From contig JAICXJ010000021.1 in the NCBI GenBank assembly GCA_025980465.1, positions 1-50,615 of the forward strand: a stretch of 50,615 bases of DNA, written 5' to 3'. This DNA comes from Frankiales bacterium (GTDB lineage Bacteria; Actinomycetota; Actinomycetes; JAFAQI01). The notes beneath the pieces are model-generated. The model saw only the letters and a program-made list of their open reading frames with translations, was not told the DNA's origin and searched no databases. The position numbers and the translations under genes are program-made. This document shows positions 752-31,835 of the stretch, piece by piece (the stretch's first letter is position 1; each line of letters begins with the position of its first letter).

Positions 752-795
752 TTGTGGAGCGGTAGCGGCGCTATCACACCGGTAGCGCTCCACAA
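752..795. repeat. 44-nt imperfect palindrome, left copy of locus A
   Basis: The left arm is TTGTGGAGCGGTAGCGG, then an 11-nt centre, then CGGTAGCGCTCCACAA. The outer 10 nt are inverted (TTGTGGAGCG / CGCTCCACAA), while the inner 8-mer CGGTAGCG is repeated directly in both arms. A second copy with almost identical arms but a different centre lies at 1823-1866, on the other side of the nuclease gene. This copy starts 6 nt past that gene's stop codon, so it could also act as its terminator hairpin, although no T tract follows. Confidence 0.85.
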
Positions 796-801
796 GCTGC
801 T

Positions 802-1746
802 CTAGCAGGAACCCCGCAACGGCTCCGGGAGGTCCTTCGGGCAGCGTACGCAGCGGCGAAACTGACCCGGCCAGCCTTCGTCCCGGAGTATCAGGGCCTG
901 CTGAATCATCGCGTCGCACGGGCGGTCGATCATGTCGGCCCATCCGTAGCGAAGATGTCGCAGCCGCTGTGCCTCGCTGCGGTTGTCCCGCTCCATGTCG
1001 CGCCACCGCTCGAGCGTGCCGTCATGCCCCAAGTGGCCGTCGAGTTCGATGTGCGTGCGGTATTCCTCAATCAGCACGTCGAGGTGCTCGACACCATTCG
1101 CCTTTCGCCTGAACTGTCGGGTTCCCATGGGCAGTCCGTGCAGTCGGCGCTGTTTCGCGTCGAGCAACTCCAGGACCGAGTGCGCCCCACGGGCAAGATC
1201 GGGAAGGGCATCGAGAACCGCCTGACGCCATCGGATCGACGGGAGTTCGACCAGCGCAGCCCGGATGCGGCCAGCGGTGGTTCGTCGTGAGCGAACGGCG
1301 TCGCCGACCACACCGAGCGCCGCCCGAGCCGACGGCATCTCCGCCAGAAGGTCGATGACGGTGCGTTCCACCGTGGTCCGGGCGGGGAAGCCCCGAACGT
1401 CGTCAGGTCGCCAAATACGGGAGCGATGAATTGTCAGGCCGCGCTGGGGTCGAATCCGGCGATCGAAGGGAATCGTGATGTGAATCGTGTCCGGCCGCGA
1501 GCGCAGCCCGTACGAATGCGCCGCGGTGGTGTGACTGAGTGCGGCGCCATCTCCGCCGTACCGCACGGCCGCGTGCAGCATTGCGGCGTAGGGGACCGGC
1601 CCACTGAAGGTGGCGTAGGTGCGGGGGTAAATCCGCTGCCAGCGACCCGACGTCACCATCCAGCGCACTCGGTCCGCCGAGAACCCAAGGTTCTCGAGGT
1701 CGTCGAGCGTGACTACCCCAGCGGTGTCCCCTGCAGCACGGATCAT
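802..1746 (-). CDS. AbiEi-like winged-helix protein with C-terminal DUF559/Vsr-like nuclease domain
   Basis: 314 aa. Residues about 8-45 (TLDDLENLGFSADRVRWMV then GRWQRIYPRTYA) match the AbiEi-type winged-helix domain that binds DNA in type IV toxin-antitoxin systems. The C-terminal third matches the DUF559/Vsr-like endonuclease fold: Glu193 in HSVLE, Asp223 in HLDVL and Glu234-x-Asp236-Gly in IELDG form a plausible PD-(D/E)XK metal site. No AbiEii toxin lies next to it, so it is a solitary gene rather than a toxin-antitoxin pair. It sits between LigD-like and glgE genes and is bracketed by two copies of one 44-nt palindrome. ATG 1746 is chosen because the conserved winged helix begins there; no strong ribosome site is visible. 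A longer reading frame upstream is antisense to glgE and is spurious. The fold assignment is family knowledge; nuclease activity and role are inferred. Confidence 0.8.
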   Translation of the reverse strand: MIRAAGDTAGVVTLDDLENLGFSADRVRWMVTSGRWQRIYPRTYATFSGPVPYAAMLHAAVRYGGDGAALSHTTAAHSYGLRSRPDTIHITIPFDRRIRPQRGLTIHRSRIWRPDDVRGFPARTTVERTVIDLLAEMPSARAALGVVGDAVRSRRTTAGRIRAALVELPSIRWRQAVLDALPDLARGAHSVLELLDAKQRRLHGLPMGTRQFRRKANGVEHLDVLIEEYRTHIELDGHLGHDGTLERWRDMERDNRSEAQRLRHLRYGWADMIDRPCDAMIQQALILRDEGWPGQFRRCVRCPKDLPEPLRGSC

Positions 1747-1795
1747 TGGCAAACGTTGCGGACGATGCTCTCGGCAGCACCCGCACAGCCGCACT

Positions 1796-1822: not shown

Positions 1823-1866
1823 TTGTGGAGCGGTAGCGGTGTCGGGACCCCGGTAGCGCTCCACAG
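1823..1866. repeat. 44-nt imperfect palindrome, right copy of locus A
   Basis: This is the same 17-11-16 layout as 752-795. Arms agree at 32 of 33 positions in direct orientation; the 11-nt centre agrees at only 4. It lies between two divergent genes (nuclease start at 1746, glgE start at 1909), so no gene ends here and a terminator role is ruled out. It could be an operator for the winged-helix protein, or an element end. It is 42 nt upstream of the glgE start codon. Confidence 0.85.
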
Positions 1867-1908: not shown

Positions 1909-4005
<2,097 letters not shown>

Positions 4006-27935: not shown

Positions 27936-28694
27936 GTGGAGATCGCCGGCAAGAAGGCCGTCATCGTGGGCGGGGCGTCGGGAATGGCGAGGGCCGCTGC
28001 TGAGCAGCTGAAGGCCAAGGGCGCGAGCATCGCGATCCTCGACCTGCCGACCTCGGCCGGAGCTGAGGTGGCGAAGTCGCTCGACGGCTCGTTCCATCCG
28101 GTCGACGTGATGAGCGACACCGACACCGAGACCGCACTCGGCGACGCGATCAACGCTCTCGGCGGCCTGCACATCGCGGTCAACACTGCCGGAGGTGGGG
28201 TGGCCCGCCGAACCCTGAGCAAGGAAGGCCCGCATCCGCTCGAGGACTTCCGCCGGGTGATCGAGCTCAACCTGATCGCCACTTTCAACCTCAACCGGCT
28301 GCAGGCCCAGGCGATGGCCTCCAACGAACCGGAGGACGACGAGCGCGGCGTCATCATCGACACCGCGTCGATCGCGGCGTTCGAGGGCCAGATCGGTCAG
28401 GTCGCCTACACGGCCGCCAAGGCCGGCATCGCGGGCATGTCGCTCACGATGGCGCGTGATCTCGGCAGCCTCGGGATCCGCGTCGTGTCGATTGCGCCGA
28501 GCCTGTTTGCCACCGGCATCACCCAGGGCATCCCGGACGAGTTCGCTGCGGTCCTGACGAAGGACGCCGCGTTCCCGAAGCGGATGGGGCGCCCCGAGGA
28601 GTACGGCCGGCTCGCGGTCGCCATCGTCGAGAACCCGATGCTGAACGGGTCGTGCATCCGGCTCGACGCAGGGCAGCGGTTCGCCCCGAAGTAA
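27936..28694 (+). CDS. Short-chain dehydrogenase (17-beta-HSD10-like)
   Basis: 252 aa classical SDR. The cofactor loop is VGGASGMA, the NAG-type motif reads NTAGGG, and the catalytic Ser/Tyr/Lys lie in IDTASIAAFEG and YTAAKAGI. The sequence resembles the HSD17B10/3-hydroxy-2-methylbutyryl-CoA dehydrogenase branch, which oxidises short 3-hydroxyacyl-CoA or hydroxysteroids with NAD+. It is divergent from the fused dehydrogenase (108-bp spacer), fitting the same beta-oxidation context. GTG 27936 has GGAGGAAGG upstream. Its stop is 12 nt before the left palindrome of locus B. Confidence 0.88.
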   Translation: MEIAGKKAVIVGGASGMARAAAEQLKAKGASIAILDLPTSAGAEVAKSLDGSFHPVDVMSDTDTETALGDAINALGGLHIAVNTAGGGVARRTLSKEGPHPLEDFRRVIELNLIATFNLNRLQAQAMASNEPEDDERGVIIDTASIAAFEGQIGQVAYTAAKAGIAGMSLTMARDLGSLGIRVVSIAPSLFATGITQGIPDEFAAVLTKDAAFPKRMGRPEEYGRLAVAIVENPMLNGSCIRLDAGQRFAPK

Positions 28695-28706
28695 CCGACC
28701 AACGAG

Positions 28707-28750
28707 TTGTCAGCGTCACCGGGTGCCCGAGCACCCGCTGGTGCTGACAA
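28707..28750. repeat. 44-nt imperfect palindrome, left copy of locus B
   Basis: The ends are TTGTCAGC and GCTGACAA, and a strong inner hairpin is formed by CGGGTGC and GCACCCG. It shares length and the TTGT...ACAA ends with the locus A palindromes but not the inner arms. It overlaps the last 11 codons and the stop of the nuclease gene, and lies between convergent gene ends, so it could also stop transcription. A partner at 29698-29741 agrees at 34 of 44 positions. Confidence 0.85.
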
Positions 28751-29642
28751 GTCCAAGGGCGCGCCGGAGTTGGGCAACCGCGCGAGGGTCGTCGGAGTAG
28801 ATCGCGACGCTCGGGAAGCGCAACGTCGTGAGGCCGTCGAGTAGGGCGTCGTTGTCCTTGGCCGTGTCGGTCCAGCGGGTCGTCAGCGTCAGGTGGATTC
28901 CGCCGTCGACTTCGACATAGAGCACTCGTCCGTCCGGGAGCCGAAACGTCGCGTCGAGGTAGCGCCGCCGCCCTCCGCTGTCGAGCCGCACCTGCAACTG
29001 TGGCCGCGGAAAGTGGTGGCGTCGACACCAACGAAGGAACTCGACCTCGGACAGCGCCTGGTTCCCGCCATCAAGGTCGAGTAGCAAGGACCGGAGCAAC
29101 CGGCGATGCCGAATTGCGCCGGCCACAGCCAACTCAAGGAGCAGGTTGCCCGGGAGGGTCAGGCGCTGTTGCACCGGGGCCACCACGATGCGACTCGCCG
29201 TGAGGGGCTGCTTCGACCAGGCGGCCGCATCGATCGTCGAGCGGTCGAGGGAGGTACTCGGCGGGCCGCTACCGGTCCGGATGTCCGCCGGCCCGAACCG
29301 GCGTGACTCGTGGACCACGACGTTCACGCCCAAAACACCGAGAACCCGGGCGCCGCGACAGACGATGACATGCACATCCGCCGTCTCGAACCCGCGTACC
29401 TTCCACTGCGCCAGCGAGGTCAGACCGCAAGTCGCCGCCGGTCCAGCGGCACTGAGTACGACGGCCCAGCGCGCCTGCTCAGGTGTGAGTGGACCGTTGT
29501 GCGTGCACACCACGAGCTCGTTGAGCAAGACCCACCGGCCACCATCGAGCTGGGCCCGAAGCTGATCCGGGGTGACCGCCCAGTCCCGAAGTTGCGAGCG
29601 GGTGGCAATTCCCCGCTGGGCGGCAAGTGAACTCAGACGCAC
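28716..29642 (-). CDS. Winged-helix/DUF559 Vsr-like nuclease-domain protein, second locus
   Basis: 308 aa with the same layout as the gene at 802-1746 but very divergent in sequence. The N-terminal winged helix is ATRSQLRDWAVTPDQLRAQL then GRWVLLNELVV. The C-terminal nuclease-like domain has Glu in LSEVEF, Asp230 in YLDATFRL and Glu244-x-Asp246-Gly in VEVDGG, so the PD-(D/E)XK-type residues are kept. The end of the coding sequence (GLVSTSGCSGTR) lies inside the left palindrome. No toxin partner is present. It starts with GTG 29642, 55 nt downstream of the right palindrome, and follows the helicase gene on the same strand. Activity and biological role are inferred. Confidence 0.78.
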   Translation of the reverse strand: MRLSSLAAQRGIATRSQLRDWAVTPDQLRAQLDGGRWVLLNELVVCTHNGPLTPEQARWAVVLSAAGPAATCGLTSLAQWKVRGFETADVHVIVCRGARVLGVLGVNVVVHESRRFGPADIRTGSGPPSTSLDRSTIDAAAWSKQPLTASRIVVAPVQQRLTLPGNLLLELAVAGAIRHRRLLRSLLLDLDGGNQALSEVEFLRWCRRHHFPRPQLQVRLDSGGRRRYLDATFRLPDGRVLYVEVDGGIHLTLTTRWTDTAKDNDALLDGLTTLRFPSVAIYSDDPRAVAQLRRALGLVSTSGCSGTR

Positions 29643-29680
29643 CGGATGACGATCGCCGATCTGGGCCGACGCCGCTGTCG

Positions 29681-29689
29681 TTGTCCACA
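29681..29689 (+). other. DnaA-box-like 9-mer upstream of locus B nuclease gene
   Basis: TTGTCCACA matches the actinobacterial DnaA-box form. It lies 38 nt upstream of the nuclease start and 8 nt from the right palindrome, the same slot as at locus A but in the opposite orientation. A chance occurrence is possible. Confidence 0.4.
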
Positions 29690-29697
29690 GCCCGCAG

Positions 29698-29741
29698 TTG
29701 TCAGGACCAGCGGGTGCTATAGCCCCCGCTAGTGCTGACAG
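29698..29741. repeat. 44-nt imperfect palindrome, right copy of locus B
   Basis: It starts TTGTCAG and ends CTGACAG; the inner AGCGGG and CCCGCT pair. It agrees with 28707-28750 at 34 of 44 positions in either orientation because both are near-palindromes. When the left copy is inverted, 20 of the first 21 positions match, including ACCAGCGGGTGCT. It begins 8 nt after the helicase stop codon, so a terminator role is possible here. Like the right copy of locus A it ends in ACAG, while both left copies end in ACAA. Confidence 0.85.
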
Positions 29742-29749
29742 GTCGGCAG

Positions 29750-31423
29750 TTAGGCGAGTTGTTCCATGAGCCAGTCGCGGCGGGCGGCGAGGACCTCCTC
29801 GGTGGCCGACGATGACGGCGGTCCTGGCACCGCGTTGCGGACCAGGGTGTGTACCGCGGCGTGCGTCAGCCGCCGGCGGGAGGCCAGCTGGCCGACCATC
29901 TCGCTGATCTCCTGGCGCAGGCCGGCGGCTGACTGCCAGGCGGTTCCGCGAGGTACGGCGAACAGCTCGTCCTGGCTGGCGCGACGCCGATGCGCCTCGT
30001 CGCGGCGGGCCAGCAGCGTCGCGGTCTGCTCCGCACTGAGCAGGCCGGGCAGGCCGAGGTAGTCCTGATCCTCATCGGTGTGCGCCGTCGGCATCGCGAC
30101 CACTGCCCGCCCGCCCTCGAGGACGTGCGCGAACTCGGCATCGGAGTCCAGCGCTTCCCAACGGTCGGCACCGACCAGTCGGTCCTCGGGTGCGATGAGC
30201 GGATCCAGGTCGTGCGCGTCGTCGCCGTCGGTCCGGGGTGGCATCACGTGGTTGCGGGCCCGCTCGAGCTCCGCCGCCAGGGCCAGCAACGGCCGGACCG
30301 CCGGCAGGAACACCGTCGCGGCTTCGCCCGGGCGCCGCGACCGGACGACCCGGCCGACGGCCTGGGCGAAGAACAGCGGCGTGCGGTAGCTCGTCATCCA
30401 CGCCAGGCAGGCGGCTCGGGGGATGTCGACGCCTTCGCTGATCATCCGCACGCACACCGCGAACCGGTCGTGTGAATGGGTGAAACGTTCCAGCCGCTTG
30501 CTCGCCTTCGGGTCGTCGGACAGGATCAGCGCCGGCCGGTGACCGGTGATCCGGCTCACGATCTCGGCGTACTGCCGGGCGTCGTCCTGGTCGCTCGCGA
30601 GGACGAGGCCCGCGGCATCCGGCATGGAGGTTGCTCGCAGGTCGGTGATCCGTTGGTCCATCGCCGCGATGACGTGCGGGATCCACTTGCCACCCGGGTT
30701 GAGCGCGGTGCGCCAGGCCCTCGCCTCGACGCTTTTGGTCGTGGTCTGCGACAGCGAGGCGGCGATGACATCCCCGGCCGAGTTCTTCCAGCGGGACACC
30801 CCGGTGTACGCCGCGAAGACGACCGGCCGGACCACCCCGTCGGCCAGCGCCTCGCCGTACCCGTAGGTGTAGTCCGCCACGCTGGCGAGGCTGCCATCGC
30901 CATCGTCTTCGTAACGGACGAACGGGATTCGCTCCTGCGGCCGGGTCCGAAACGGCGTGCCGGTGAGAGCGAGCCGGCGACTTGCCGTGTCGAATGCGGT
31001 CAGCGTTGCCTCACCCCAGGACAGACCGTCGCCGGCATGGTGAATCTCGTCGAGGATCACCAGGCTGCGCTTCGCCCGGGTGCGCGCCTCGTGGATGGCC
31101 GGCCGCGCCGCCACCTGCGGGTAGGTCGTGACGTAGCCGTGCAGGTCGGCGCGAACCGGACCGACGGCGTTCGCCAACGTCGGGTCGAGCCGGATCCCGA
31201 GGCGGTCAGCGGCGAAGGCCCATTGGCTGCGCAGGTGGTCGGTCGGGCACACGACGATCACCCGGTCGACCGCGCGCTTGGCCAACAGTTCGTGCGCCAC
31301 GGCGAGTGCGAAGGTGGTCTTCCCGGCGCCAGGGGTGGCGGTGACCAGGAAGTCGGTCGCGGCCCGGTCTCGGTAGAGCCGCAGCGCCTCGACCTGCCAC
31401 GCCCGTAGCTGTCCGGGCAGCAC
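29750..31423 (-). CDS. SF2 DEAD/DEAH-box helicase
   Basis: 557 aa. The helicase core starts close to the N-terminus: Q-like LRAWQVEALRLY, Walker A TPGAGKTT, Walker B as DEIHH, motif III as LTGTPFR. Motif V/VI region is SEGVDIPRAACLAWM and QAVGRVVRSRRPGE. The ResIII-type N-lobe is shared with restriction and repair helicases. The C-terminal 150 residues (ARRDEAHRRRASQDELF onward) have no motif I recognise. GTG 31423 is preferred because AAGGAG lies 8 nt upstream and the conserved LPGQLRAWQ follows; an in-frame start at 31477 is less likely. The nuclease gene of locus B lies 107 nt downstream on the same strand. Its role (DNA repair or nucleic-acid remodelling) is not known. Confidence 0.85.
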   Translation of the reverse strand: MLPGQLRAWQVEALRLYRDRAATDFLVTATPGAGKTTFALAVAHELLAKRAVDRVIVVCPTDHLRSQWAFAADRLGIRLDPTLANAVGPVRADLHGYVTTYPQVAARPAIHEARTRAKRSLVILDEIHHAGDGLSWGEATLTAFDTASRRLALTGTPFRTRPQERIPFVRYEDDGDGSLASVADYTYGYGEALADGVVRPVVFAAYTGVSRWKNSAGDVIAASLSQTTTKSVEARAWRTALNPGGKWIPHVIAAMDQRITDLRATSMPDAAGLVLASDQDDARQYAEIVSRITGHRPALILSDDPKASKRLERFTHSHDRFAVCVRMISEGVDIPRAACLAWMTSYRTPLFFAQAVGRVVRSRRPGEAATVFLPAVRPLLALAAELERARNHVMPPRTDGDDAHDLDPLIAPEDRLVGADRWEALDSDAEFAHVLEGGRAVVAMPTAHTDEDQDYLGLPGLLSAEQTATLLARRDEAHRRRASQDELFAVPRGTAWQSAAGLRQEISEMVGQLASRRRLTHAAVHTLVRNAVPGPPSSSATEEVLAARRDWLMEQLA

Positions 31424-31835
31424 GATCAGTACTCCTTGCTGGGCGGGAGATTCCGGACGGATACCGGTGCCGTCCACCCTAGGACGACGCGGCAGCAGGT
31501 CGCGGTTACGCCACCTCCGCGGCTGGTTCGGCGATCCTGCCTAGTGCAGATGGACCCACTTGGTCCGGAGCGGTTAACCACCCCTCGACACCAACCGACG
31601 CAAAGCCAGTCCACAGGTTCGTCAGCGCAGCCGGCACACCGACATCACAGTTCGGCGAATCACCCAGTGACCGCTCGGGGTCGGTCGCTCTCGTCGGAGT
31701 GGGTTAGGTCGGTCTGCCGACTGCCACGGCGTCGCGTGGCTGGTGTGCGAGTACGCGGGGTCGACGTGAGCCCGGGCTCGGCTCGATGACATCGGGCCCG
31801 GCTCCGTCGACCTCGGGCTCGCCGACCCGAAGCTG
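31424..31835. other. 412-bp region without a supported gene
   Basis: Reading frames here have biased, repetitive composition (Arg/Ser/Pro-rich) and no ribosome sites or recognisable motifs. The only structure seen is the 12-bp perfect palindrome GAGCCCGGGCTC (31768-31779), downstream of the P450 stop on the minus strand, possibly a hairpin terminator without a T tract. The right part of the region is upstream DNA of the helicase gene only near 31424-31500. Confidence 0.5.

Follow-up and report, generated by a model that had tools for sequence, protein, structure and literature searches.

The window analysed here, a stretch of 50,615 nucleotides, is contig C60 of the 3.4-Mb draft genome of a Frankiales bacterium (G000). 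At locus B of this window, one gene on the reverse strand lies between two imperfect palindromes, which are identical to each other at 34 of 44 bases (Table 1). These paired 44-nt palindromes had been described in the initial annotation of the sequence, and both their positions and their identity were as given there. They form the longest inverted-repeat pair listed for the whole window, followed by the pair of locus A. The stop codon of the gene falls within the left palindrome. The adjacent genes encode an SDR dehydrogenase and a helicase-like protein; no gene of an AbiEii-type nucleotidyltransferase toxin was present beside the locus.

Table 1. Features of locus B and of the comparison locus A, with positions in the window.
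Feature	Position	Strand	Evidence and remarks
SDR dehydrogenase gene, neighbor of locus B	27936–28694	+	
Family-B palindrome, gene-3' side	28707–28750	.	Dyad to ~28705–28752; covariance-model match (itself in the training set of the model)
Gene of AbiEi-like / PD-(D/E)XK-like protein	28716–29642	-	ORF and homologue alignment; 308 aa from GTG at 29642, start presumed
Putative PD-(D/E)XK nuclease-like domain	28740–29066	-	Residues ~205–313 of P0001; E211, D242, E256, D258, H262
AbiEi-like part, winged helix in front (predicted)	29070–29618	-	Residues 21–203 of P0001; 6y8q, PADLOC AbiEi
Family-B palindrome, gene-5' side	29698–29741	.	Dyad to ~29696–29743; covariance-model match
Helicase-like gene, neighbor of locus B	29750–31477	-	
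Locus A palindrome, gene-3' side	752–795	.	Comparison
Locus A gene, same superfamily as B	805–1767	-	26% identical to B, E 8e-14; start presumed
Locus A palindrome, gene-5' side	1823–1866	.	Comparison

A query of the genome with the B protein gave three matches at E ≤ 10, namely B itself, locus C on contig C65 (48% identical), and locus A (26%). Locus C has a separate pair, TTGTCAGG...CCTGACAA, around its gene. All three loci carry palindromes on both sides, and the palindrome sequences differ among the loci. The ends TTGT...ACA followed by A or G, proposed initially as a common trait, are correct for the four copies of loci A and B. As a general trait they did not hold: palindromes of other families start with, among others, TCTTGG, GGGTGC, TGTGA, or ATGTGACA, so that TTGT...ACA is limited to the families of the window and their near relatives, and the rule of A in left and G in right copies fails at locus C, where both copies end in A. 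Two weaker relatives of the gene in the same genome (G000:C14:27254–28042 and C72:337–927) were found with a profile of 13 homologues.

The B protein had no significant match in Pfam or NCBIfam, and its closest named relatives were proteins of Frankiales/Frankiaceae MAGs. PADLOC AbiEi profiles matched both the B protein (E 4.8e-7) and the locus A protein (E 7.8e-19). The AlphaFold model of the B protein, obtained with a 13-row alignment (mean pLDDT 85, pTM 0.82), matched the AbiEi antitoxin of Streptococcus agalactiae (6y8q) over residues 21–203 with a Foldseek E of 1.2e-4; VIA-align gave a Z of 11.6 for 175 residues at 4.2 Å. Residues ~205–313 of the model yielded weak structural matches to EndoMS, NucS, MspJI, and Can2 with Z values of 2.9–4.2, which can reflect a mere common arrangement. 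E211, D242, E256, D258, G259, and H262 were invariant in 13/13 aligned homologues, and all of these except G259 are probably active-site residues of the PD-(D/E)XK type. Weak Pfam matches of the relatives (E ≤ 0.01) were to MTES_1575 in 2/13, to AbiEi_4 in 1/13 and 2/10, and to DUF559 in 1/10 members; the curated Pfam cut-off for DUF559 / MTES_1575 was reached neither by these weak matches nor by B, which had none. No Pfam match to HUH (Y1) transposases appeared in the 13 + 10 members at E ≤ 0.01, only those to AbiEi_4, MTES_1575, and DUF559, and the best 50 PDB fold matches listed included no HUH transposase, which proves nothing by itself. Neither Pfam nor NCBIfam by itself sufficed to identify the B protein. 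The AbiEi_4 + DUF559 layout assumed in the initial annotation rests on the PADLOC profiles, the predicted fold, and the weak Pfam matches of relatives. The B protein is predicted to combine an AbiEi DNA-binding part with a PD-(D/E)XK nuclease that would be catalytically active.

Homologue loci were collected from genomes of the family and order, from GTDB species (60 loci), and from Micromonospora genes approximately 50% identical to the X gene of this genus (20 loci, picked before their flanks were inspected). After 48 of 129 loci were dropped (21 duplicates, 17 partial genes, and 10 with short flanks), 81 were assessable. At 59 of these, the palindrome pair scored above all 265 position controls from those loci (19/27, 25/35, and 15/19 by set). 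L340 and L345, both belonging to the last set, were put aside because the two palindromes of each mismatch each other, which left 57/81 loci with a matching pair above all controls; a matching pair was not shown at 24/81. In an earlier narrower-window run, 39/76 loci were above 700 controls, and the control maximum was again 39.0. The pair score of the 57/81 test included the similarity of both palindromes, and the fair version is a choice on each side by palindromicity only. It gave 47/81 loci whose two palindromes agree at 28 or more of 42 positions, compared with 0/171 position controls and 5% of between-locus pairs, and 30/60 after exclusion of the Micromonospora X loci, most of which are orthologues occupying a single site. 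Flanking partners shared a mean of 35.2/42 bases in the 57 selected loci, a value inflated by selection, compared with 18.4 between loci; with the palindromicity-only choice, identity within loci was 27.3 of 42 over all 81 loci.

Palindrome similarity followed protein similarity across loci (Mantel r 0.73; the highest of 2000 permutations reached 0.17), and at protein identities below approximately 65% it was at background. At least three gene groups with three palindromes were distinguished in Micromonospora: X with TCTTGG...CCAAGA, Y with GATCTTGGACAGTTTCC...GGAAACTGTCCAAGATC, and Z with GGGTGC(G/A)...GCACCC or variants. The initial annotation had claimed from two loci that each nuclease lineage has its own cognate palindrome and that protein and repeat co-evolve. 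The first claim is borne out by the survey, also when pairs are chosen blind to their similarity, and by the three Micromonospora groups, and the second agrees with the joint variation of protein and palindrome. One half of what had been named there as counter-evidence, palindromes present without the gene, was also found. Group Z comprises L344 and L346–L352; in L346, L350, and L351, lineage-specific bases were common to both copies of the locus, which suggests concerted evolution. Locus L113 is labelled 'Candidatus Melainabacteria', yet its flanks align with those of the actinobacterial loci L070, L071, and L076, and it is possibly a misbinned contig.

A degenerate family-B pattern with up to 3 mismatches matched 16 places of the own genome (30 rows), against 0 for the reversed control, in agreement with the earlier judgement that chance is unlikely. 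A covariance model made from those 16 copies found 24 places, i.e., the two flanks and 22 others, and none of the latter adjoins a detected relative of the gene. One B gene and 24 family-B palindrome places are therefore present in this genome. This dispersal had been overlooked, and what was regarded as a gene with paired ends is a gene plus a cognate repeat family. Thirteen genomes of the order were compared. Family-B rows number 6 to 54 in the 9 that have a B-type gene (each strand of a place can yield its own row) and 0, 0, 1, and 1 in the 4 that lack it; the single matches are marginal (E 0.005–0.007), and at E < 0.005 palindromes were detected in 9/9 genomes with the gene vs. 0/4 without. 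The X-palindrome model matched 24/24 gene-bearing Micromonospora genomes examined. Of 160 Micromonospora genomes, 60 have the X gene (by our reading of the listed rows, fragments included) and 100 do not. At least 8 X-palindrome rows were present in 60/60 of the former (median 23, minimum 8, where the two flanks alone may give 4) vs. 22/100 of the latter. The Mann-Whitney p for this difference was 5e-22, with rows counted among the matches listed; the loci are related to each other, as are the genomes, and this and the other co-occurrence statistics ignore kinship.

In the palindromes, the outer arms of 8–10 bp and the inner arms of 4–6 bp are conserved, and the ~4–6 bases between the arms and the spacer of 4–8 bases are free. 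All 16 aligned family-B copies start with (T/C)TGTCAG. Because the dyad usually runs 2 bases further out, with A at −2 in 15/16 and T at +2 in 14/16 copies (by eye), the family-B unit is nearer to 48 than to 44 nt. No target-site duplication was visible by eye in the flanks of these 16 copies. The arms of the Micromonospora palindromes covary (score 0.200, reached by 0/500 shuffles; 0.071–0.092 for slid versions), with paired changes in outer-arm columns 7–9 and 36–38 and also in column 15. For family B, arm covariation was not beyond that of the shuffles, and the middle of the arms varies without compensation. Because covariation of the arms was seen for Micromonospora and not for family B, we prefer a duplex dyad, with two protein half-sites of ~22 bp that would be read by a dimer, as fitting better than a fully paired extruded hairpin. 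AbiEi binds two 23-bp inverted repeats 3 bp apart, according to passages of PMC7319586, and the similar half-site geometry at locus B was counted in favor of the explanation proposed below.

Copies of one palindrome occur at unrelated places. L356 and L357 are identical 44-mers in unrelated surroundings of the same genome, and another identical pair (L358 and L359 of G110) has flanks common to both copies and lies within a longer repeat. At the L356 junction, 30 loci (L356 and 29 orthologues) carried the X palindrome in 6 cases, the Y palindrome in 3, and neither in 21, the last group including one locus without clear limits and one with a truncated X copy. In G021 (M. zingiberis; L196–L207), approximately 11 of 20 fetched X copies were inside a longer near-identical repeat found over many contigs, with ~30 nt of common flank on each side of the palindrome. 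The idea of a recent burst of 44-mers in G021 was weakened by this composite repeat. No relative was found in viral contigs, and plasmids queried with the Micromonospora protein gave one match (31.6%).

In a search for an empty site of locus B, its SDR and helicase neighbors were never side by side among the matches listed for other genomes of the order, and therefore the argument on occupancy rests on Micromonospora. The X gene of most gene-bearing Micromonospora genomes sits at one junction, convergent by our reading, whose left flank is present in 160/160 genomes. Among 112 loci read at this junction (90 and 22 already collected), some hold the whole element, facing one way or the other, some a lone X or Y palindrome, some palindromic repeats of other types, and some no palindrome at all. 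The automatic tally of the 112 loci was F+ 26, F− 11, S 13, Y 9, and O 53, with class O over-counted: L258, L262, L279, and L284 are decayed solos on reading, and L241, scored as S, is a Y-type palindrome. Solo X palindromes have the same borders as the full element; only 69 nt lie between the flanks in L220 vs. 1139 in L216. In 53 genomes with both places listed, the gene was at the common junction in 50 (33 in one orientation and 17 in the other) and elsewhere in 3. When the gene was elsewhere in G021 and G030, the common junction kept a solo palindrome (L285) and a part of a palindrome (L305), respectively. In G148, the gene with both palindromes is at another place, and no X palindrome was detected in the sequence retrieved from the common junction (L436).

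Opposite orientations at the common junction were initially considered as simple inversion in place; trees of 31 full elements showed mostly replacement by another gene lineage. On the flank tree, gene lineage changed 5 times (9.7 in shuffles) and orientation 7 times (shuffles: 8.7), and on the gene tree orientation changed only 2 times. Because orientation changes 7 times on the former and 2 times on the latter, most orientation differences are attributed to lineage replacement. Apparently, units of other gene lineages, often facing the opposite way, have repeatedly taken the place of the resident one, with approximately two flips within a lineage (L083 and L104). L263 and L269 exemplify a replacement with change of orientation: their flanks are 95% identical and their proteins 76.5%. 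Judging from truncated genes between palindromes (L115 and L231) and from L304, apparently a remnant that lacks the gene, decay or loss of the gene may be one route to solo palindromes. Family genes split by stops or in pieces were also seen at L040, L046/L053, and L052/L055, and some members of this sort are still between palindromes. In the family of the window, one junction has a B-type element with TGTCCGAA palindromes in one genus (L035) and, in another genus, an A-type element with TGTGAGC and TGTGAAC palindromes (L049 and L050).

We propose, with a probability of approximately 0.5, that the palindromes belong to a small selfish, REPtron-like element of soil actinobacteria, with locus B as its gene-carrying copy and with a nuclease that would recognize and spread its own palindrome. 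One gene is bordered by, and dedicated to, one palindrome family of ~44–50 bp, whose solo copies are mostly intergenic. The AbiEi part, as a dimer, would read the two half-sites of the palindrome, and the nuclease may cut or nick at or beside it. Repair of the break would copy the palindrome, and occasionally the palindrome–gene–palindrome unit, into other intergenic places, and the unit could also home into a pre-existing solo palindrome, where a symmetric target would permit both orientations at one site. Solo palindromes would arise also from decay or deletion of the gene between two copies. In this scheme, binding of the palindrome by the B protein, its cleavage, and the role of cleavage as the cause of spread are presumed from the architecture and distribution described above. 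The proposal is backed by the matching pairs, the cognate specificity, the dispersal, the joint occurrence of gene and copies, the identical 44-mers L356 and L357, and the varying occupancy of junctions. It is weakened by the gene–flank correlations given below and the orientation changes on the two trees, the lack of visible target-site duplications, the palindromes of gene-less Micromonospora genomes, the copies that lie within longer repeats, the 24/81 loci where no matching pair was shown, and the arms of family B, which covary no more than shuffles do.

A rather unlikely alternative is autoregulation: an AbiEi-like repressor would bind the upstream palindrome as its operator, transcription would end at the downstream one, and the solos would be bidirectional terminators or sites of this regulator, with the nuclease serving another function, e.g., defence. 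For AbiEi and Rv2827c, passages of PMC7319586 describe repression of the protein's own operon through binding to inverted repeats, and the upstream palindromes are mostly 50–200 nt ahead of the start of the profile match. The position of solo copies in the own genome points in the same direction: by a crude gene call, 10/14 were intergenic, all of them having a stop codon no more than 20 nt away, and 6 of the 10 lay between convergent genes; the remaining 4/14 were inside called ORFs. The common Micromonospora site is also a convergent junction, as we read it. But no stretch of four or more T was seen by eye immediately behind the palindrome in any of the 16 family-B copies, and one and the same palindrome is present on both sides of the gene. 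Regulation also leaves unexplained the identical copies at unrelated sites (L356 and L357), their presence or absence at orthologous junctions, and the finding of the palindrome–gene–palindrome unit at more than one site and facing either way.

It is also possible, albeit quite improbable, that another enzyme or replication slippage spreads the palindromes and that the nuclease gene is a passenger exchanged by homologous recombination between palindromes or flanking genes. X-palindrome rows in gene-less Micromonospora had a median of 1 and were absent from 47/100 genomes, but 53/100 have matches; 18 of them have 10 or more rows, the highest number being at least 39. Copies thus persist, or arrive, without the X gene, as this explanation would have it. 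Several other palindromic repeat types occupy the Micromonospora junctions described above. The correlations of gene with flanks (0.43 and 0.57) were about equal to that of flank with flank (0.53), and as they were no lower, part or all of the exchange between species may be due to ordinary recombination in flanking genes. Against a mere passenger, the palindrome tracks the protein lineage across loci and subfamilies, copies are far more numerous in gene-bearing genomes, and the four genomes of the order without a B-type gene have none or one marginal match. That the AbiEi–nuclease fusion restricts invading DNA as a defence or toxin–antitoxin system, with the palindromes as marks for self-recognition or against recombination, is hardly probable: the AbiEi profiles of PADLOC match and the C-terminal part weakly resembles REase-like nucleases, but no AbiEii-type toxin gene adjoins locus B and the spread of the palindromes is left unexplained.

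Among known systems, the proposed selfish element is closest to REPtrons. These consist of an HUH transposase with tagged palindromes, according to parts of PMC8266576, PMC6006769, and PMC3733652; mostly a single tnpA-REP (RAYT) gene per repeat family is bordered by its palindromes, cognate copies are dispersed between genes, their abundance often tracks the gene, and gene and repeat co-evolve (passages of PMC8266576 and PMC6006769). Locus B resembles them in the cognate palindrome copies bordering the gene, in the dispersed copies, and in the one gene for the repeat family. However, its enzyme is AbiEi-like and PD-(D/E)XK-like rather than an HUH Y1 transposase, and its palindrome of ~44–50 bp is without the GTAG/CGTC tag. 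The element would thus work like a REPtron, yet outside the REPtron family. The word 'actinobacteria' is absent from PMC3733652 and PMC6006769 on REPtrons.

With AbiE type IV toxin–antitoxin systems (AbiEi antitoxin; Rv2827c), locus B shares the fold of residues 21–203, and the AbiEi family binds inverted repeats in its own promoter; locus B differs in the additional nuclease-like domain, in having no adjacent AbiEii-like toxin, and in palindromes that flank the gene on either side and are scattered elsewhere. Vsr-like REase families DUF559 / MTES_1575 have in common with B the conserved E, D, E-x-D, and H of the C-terminal domain, and relatives of B match them weakly in Pfam, but B is fused to an AbiEi part and has dedicated flanking palindromes. 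Free-standing homing endonuclease genes are present or absent at a fixed site and are copied by repair. The full, solo, and empty states of one Micromonospora junction and the repair-driven copying proposed here are similar to this, whereas the repeat that flanks the gene would itself be the target and is found dispersed as well. No report of an AbiEi–nuclease gene bracketed by palindromes was found among the matches listed from the open-licence literature, and in passages of PMC3710099 on MTES_1575 no link of this family with palindromes or AbiEi was found.

Somewhat short of an even chance, in our opinion, is the broader proposal of a new class of selfish elements, in which an AbiEi + PD-(D/E)XK nuclease would spread its own palindrome, the gene would home in either orientation, and recognition would be re-specialized lineage by lineage, constituting a second origin of REP-type repeats. 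If this is true, dispersed palindromes of actinobacteria gain an owner enzyme, REP-like dissemination arose independently of HUH transposases, and the way in which short palindromes spread through bacterial genomes can be put to the test with a nuclease and a 44-bp substrate. The dozens of natural enzyme–palindrome pairs are a data set on the AbiEi-type reading of long palindromes.

Some further repeats and intervals were observed. Twelve intervals of ~1.2–1.5 kb without an X gene at the common Micromonospora junction were considered as elements of the B kind and rejected, since neither profile matched any ORF; one of them (L250) contains what we take from its sequence to be a CapA-like gene. 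Other palindromic repeats, GATC...CACGGTTTC-like and ATGTCGGCGACATGGCGG...TGTCGCCGACAT, were present at junctions L224, L236, L237, L399, and L400. In the own genome, contig C66 (L032) has two family-A-like palindromes at 1079–1122 and 3947–3989, 2.9 kb apart; no nuclease gene was seen between them, and the interval contains an ORF that is FtsH-like by reading of its translation. Tandem 18-nt repeats, TCGACGATTGGGCCGCTG-like, form four overlapping copies at positions 3643–3739 of the window.
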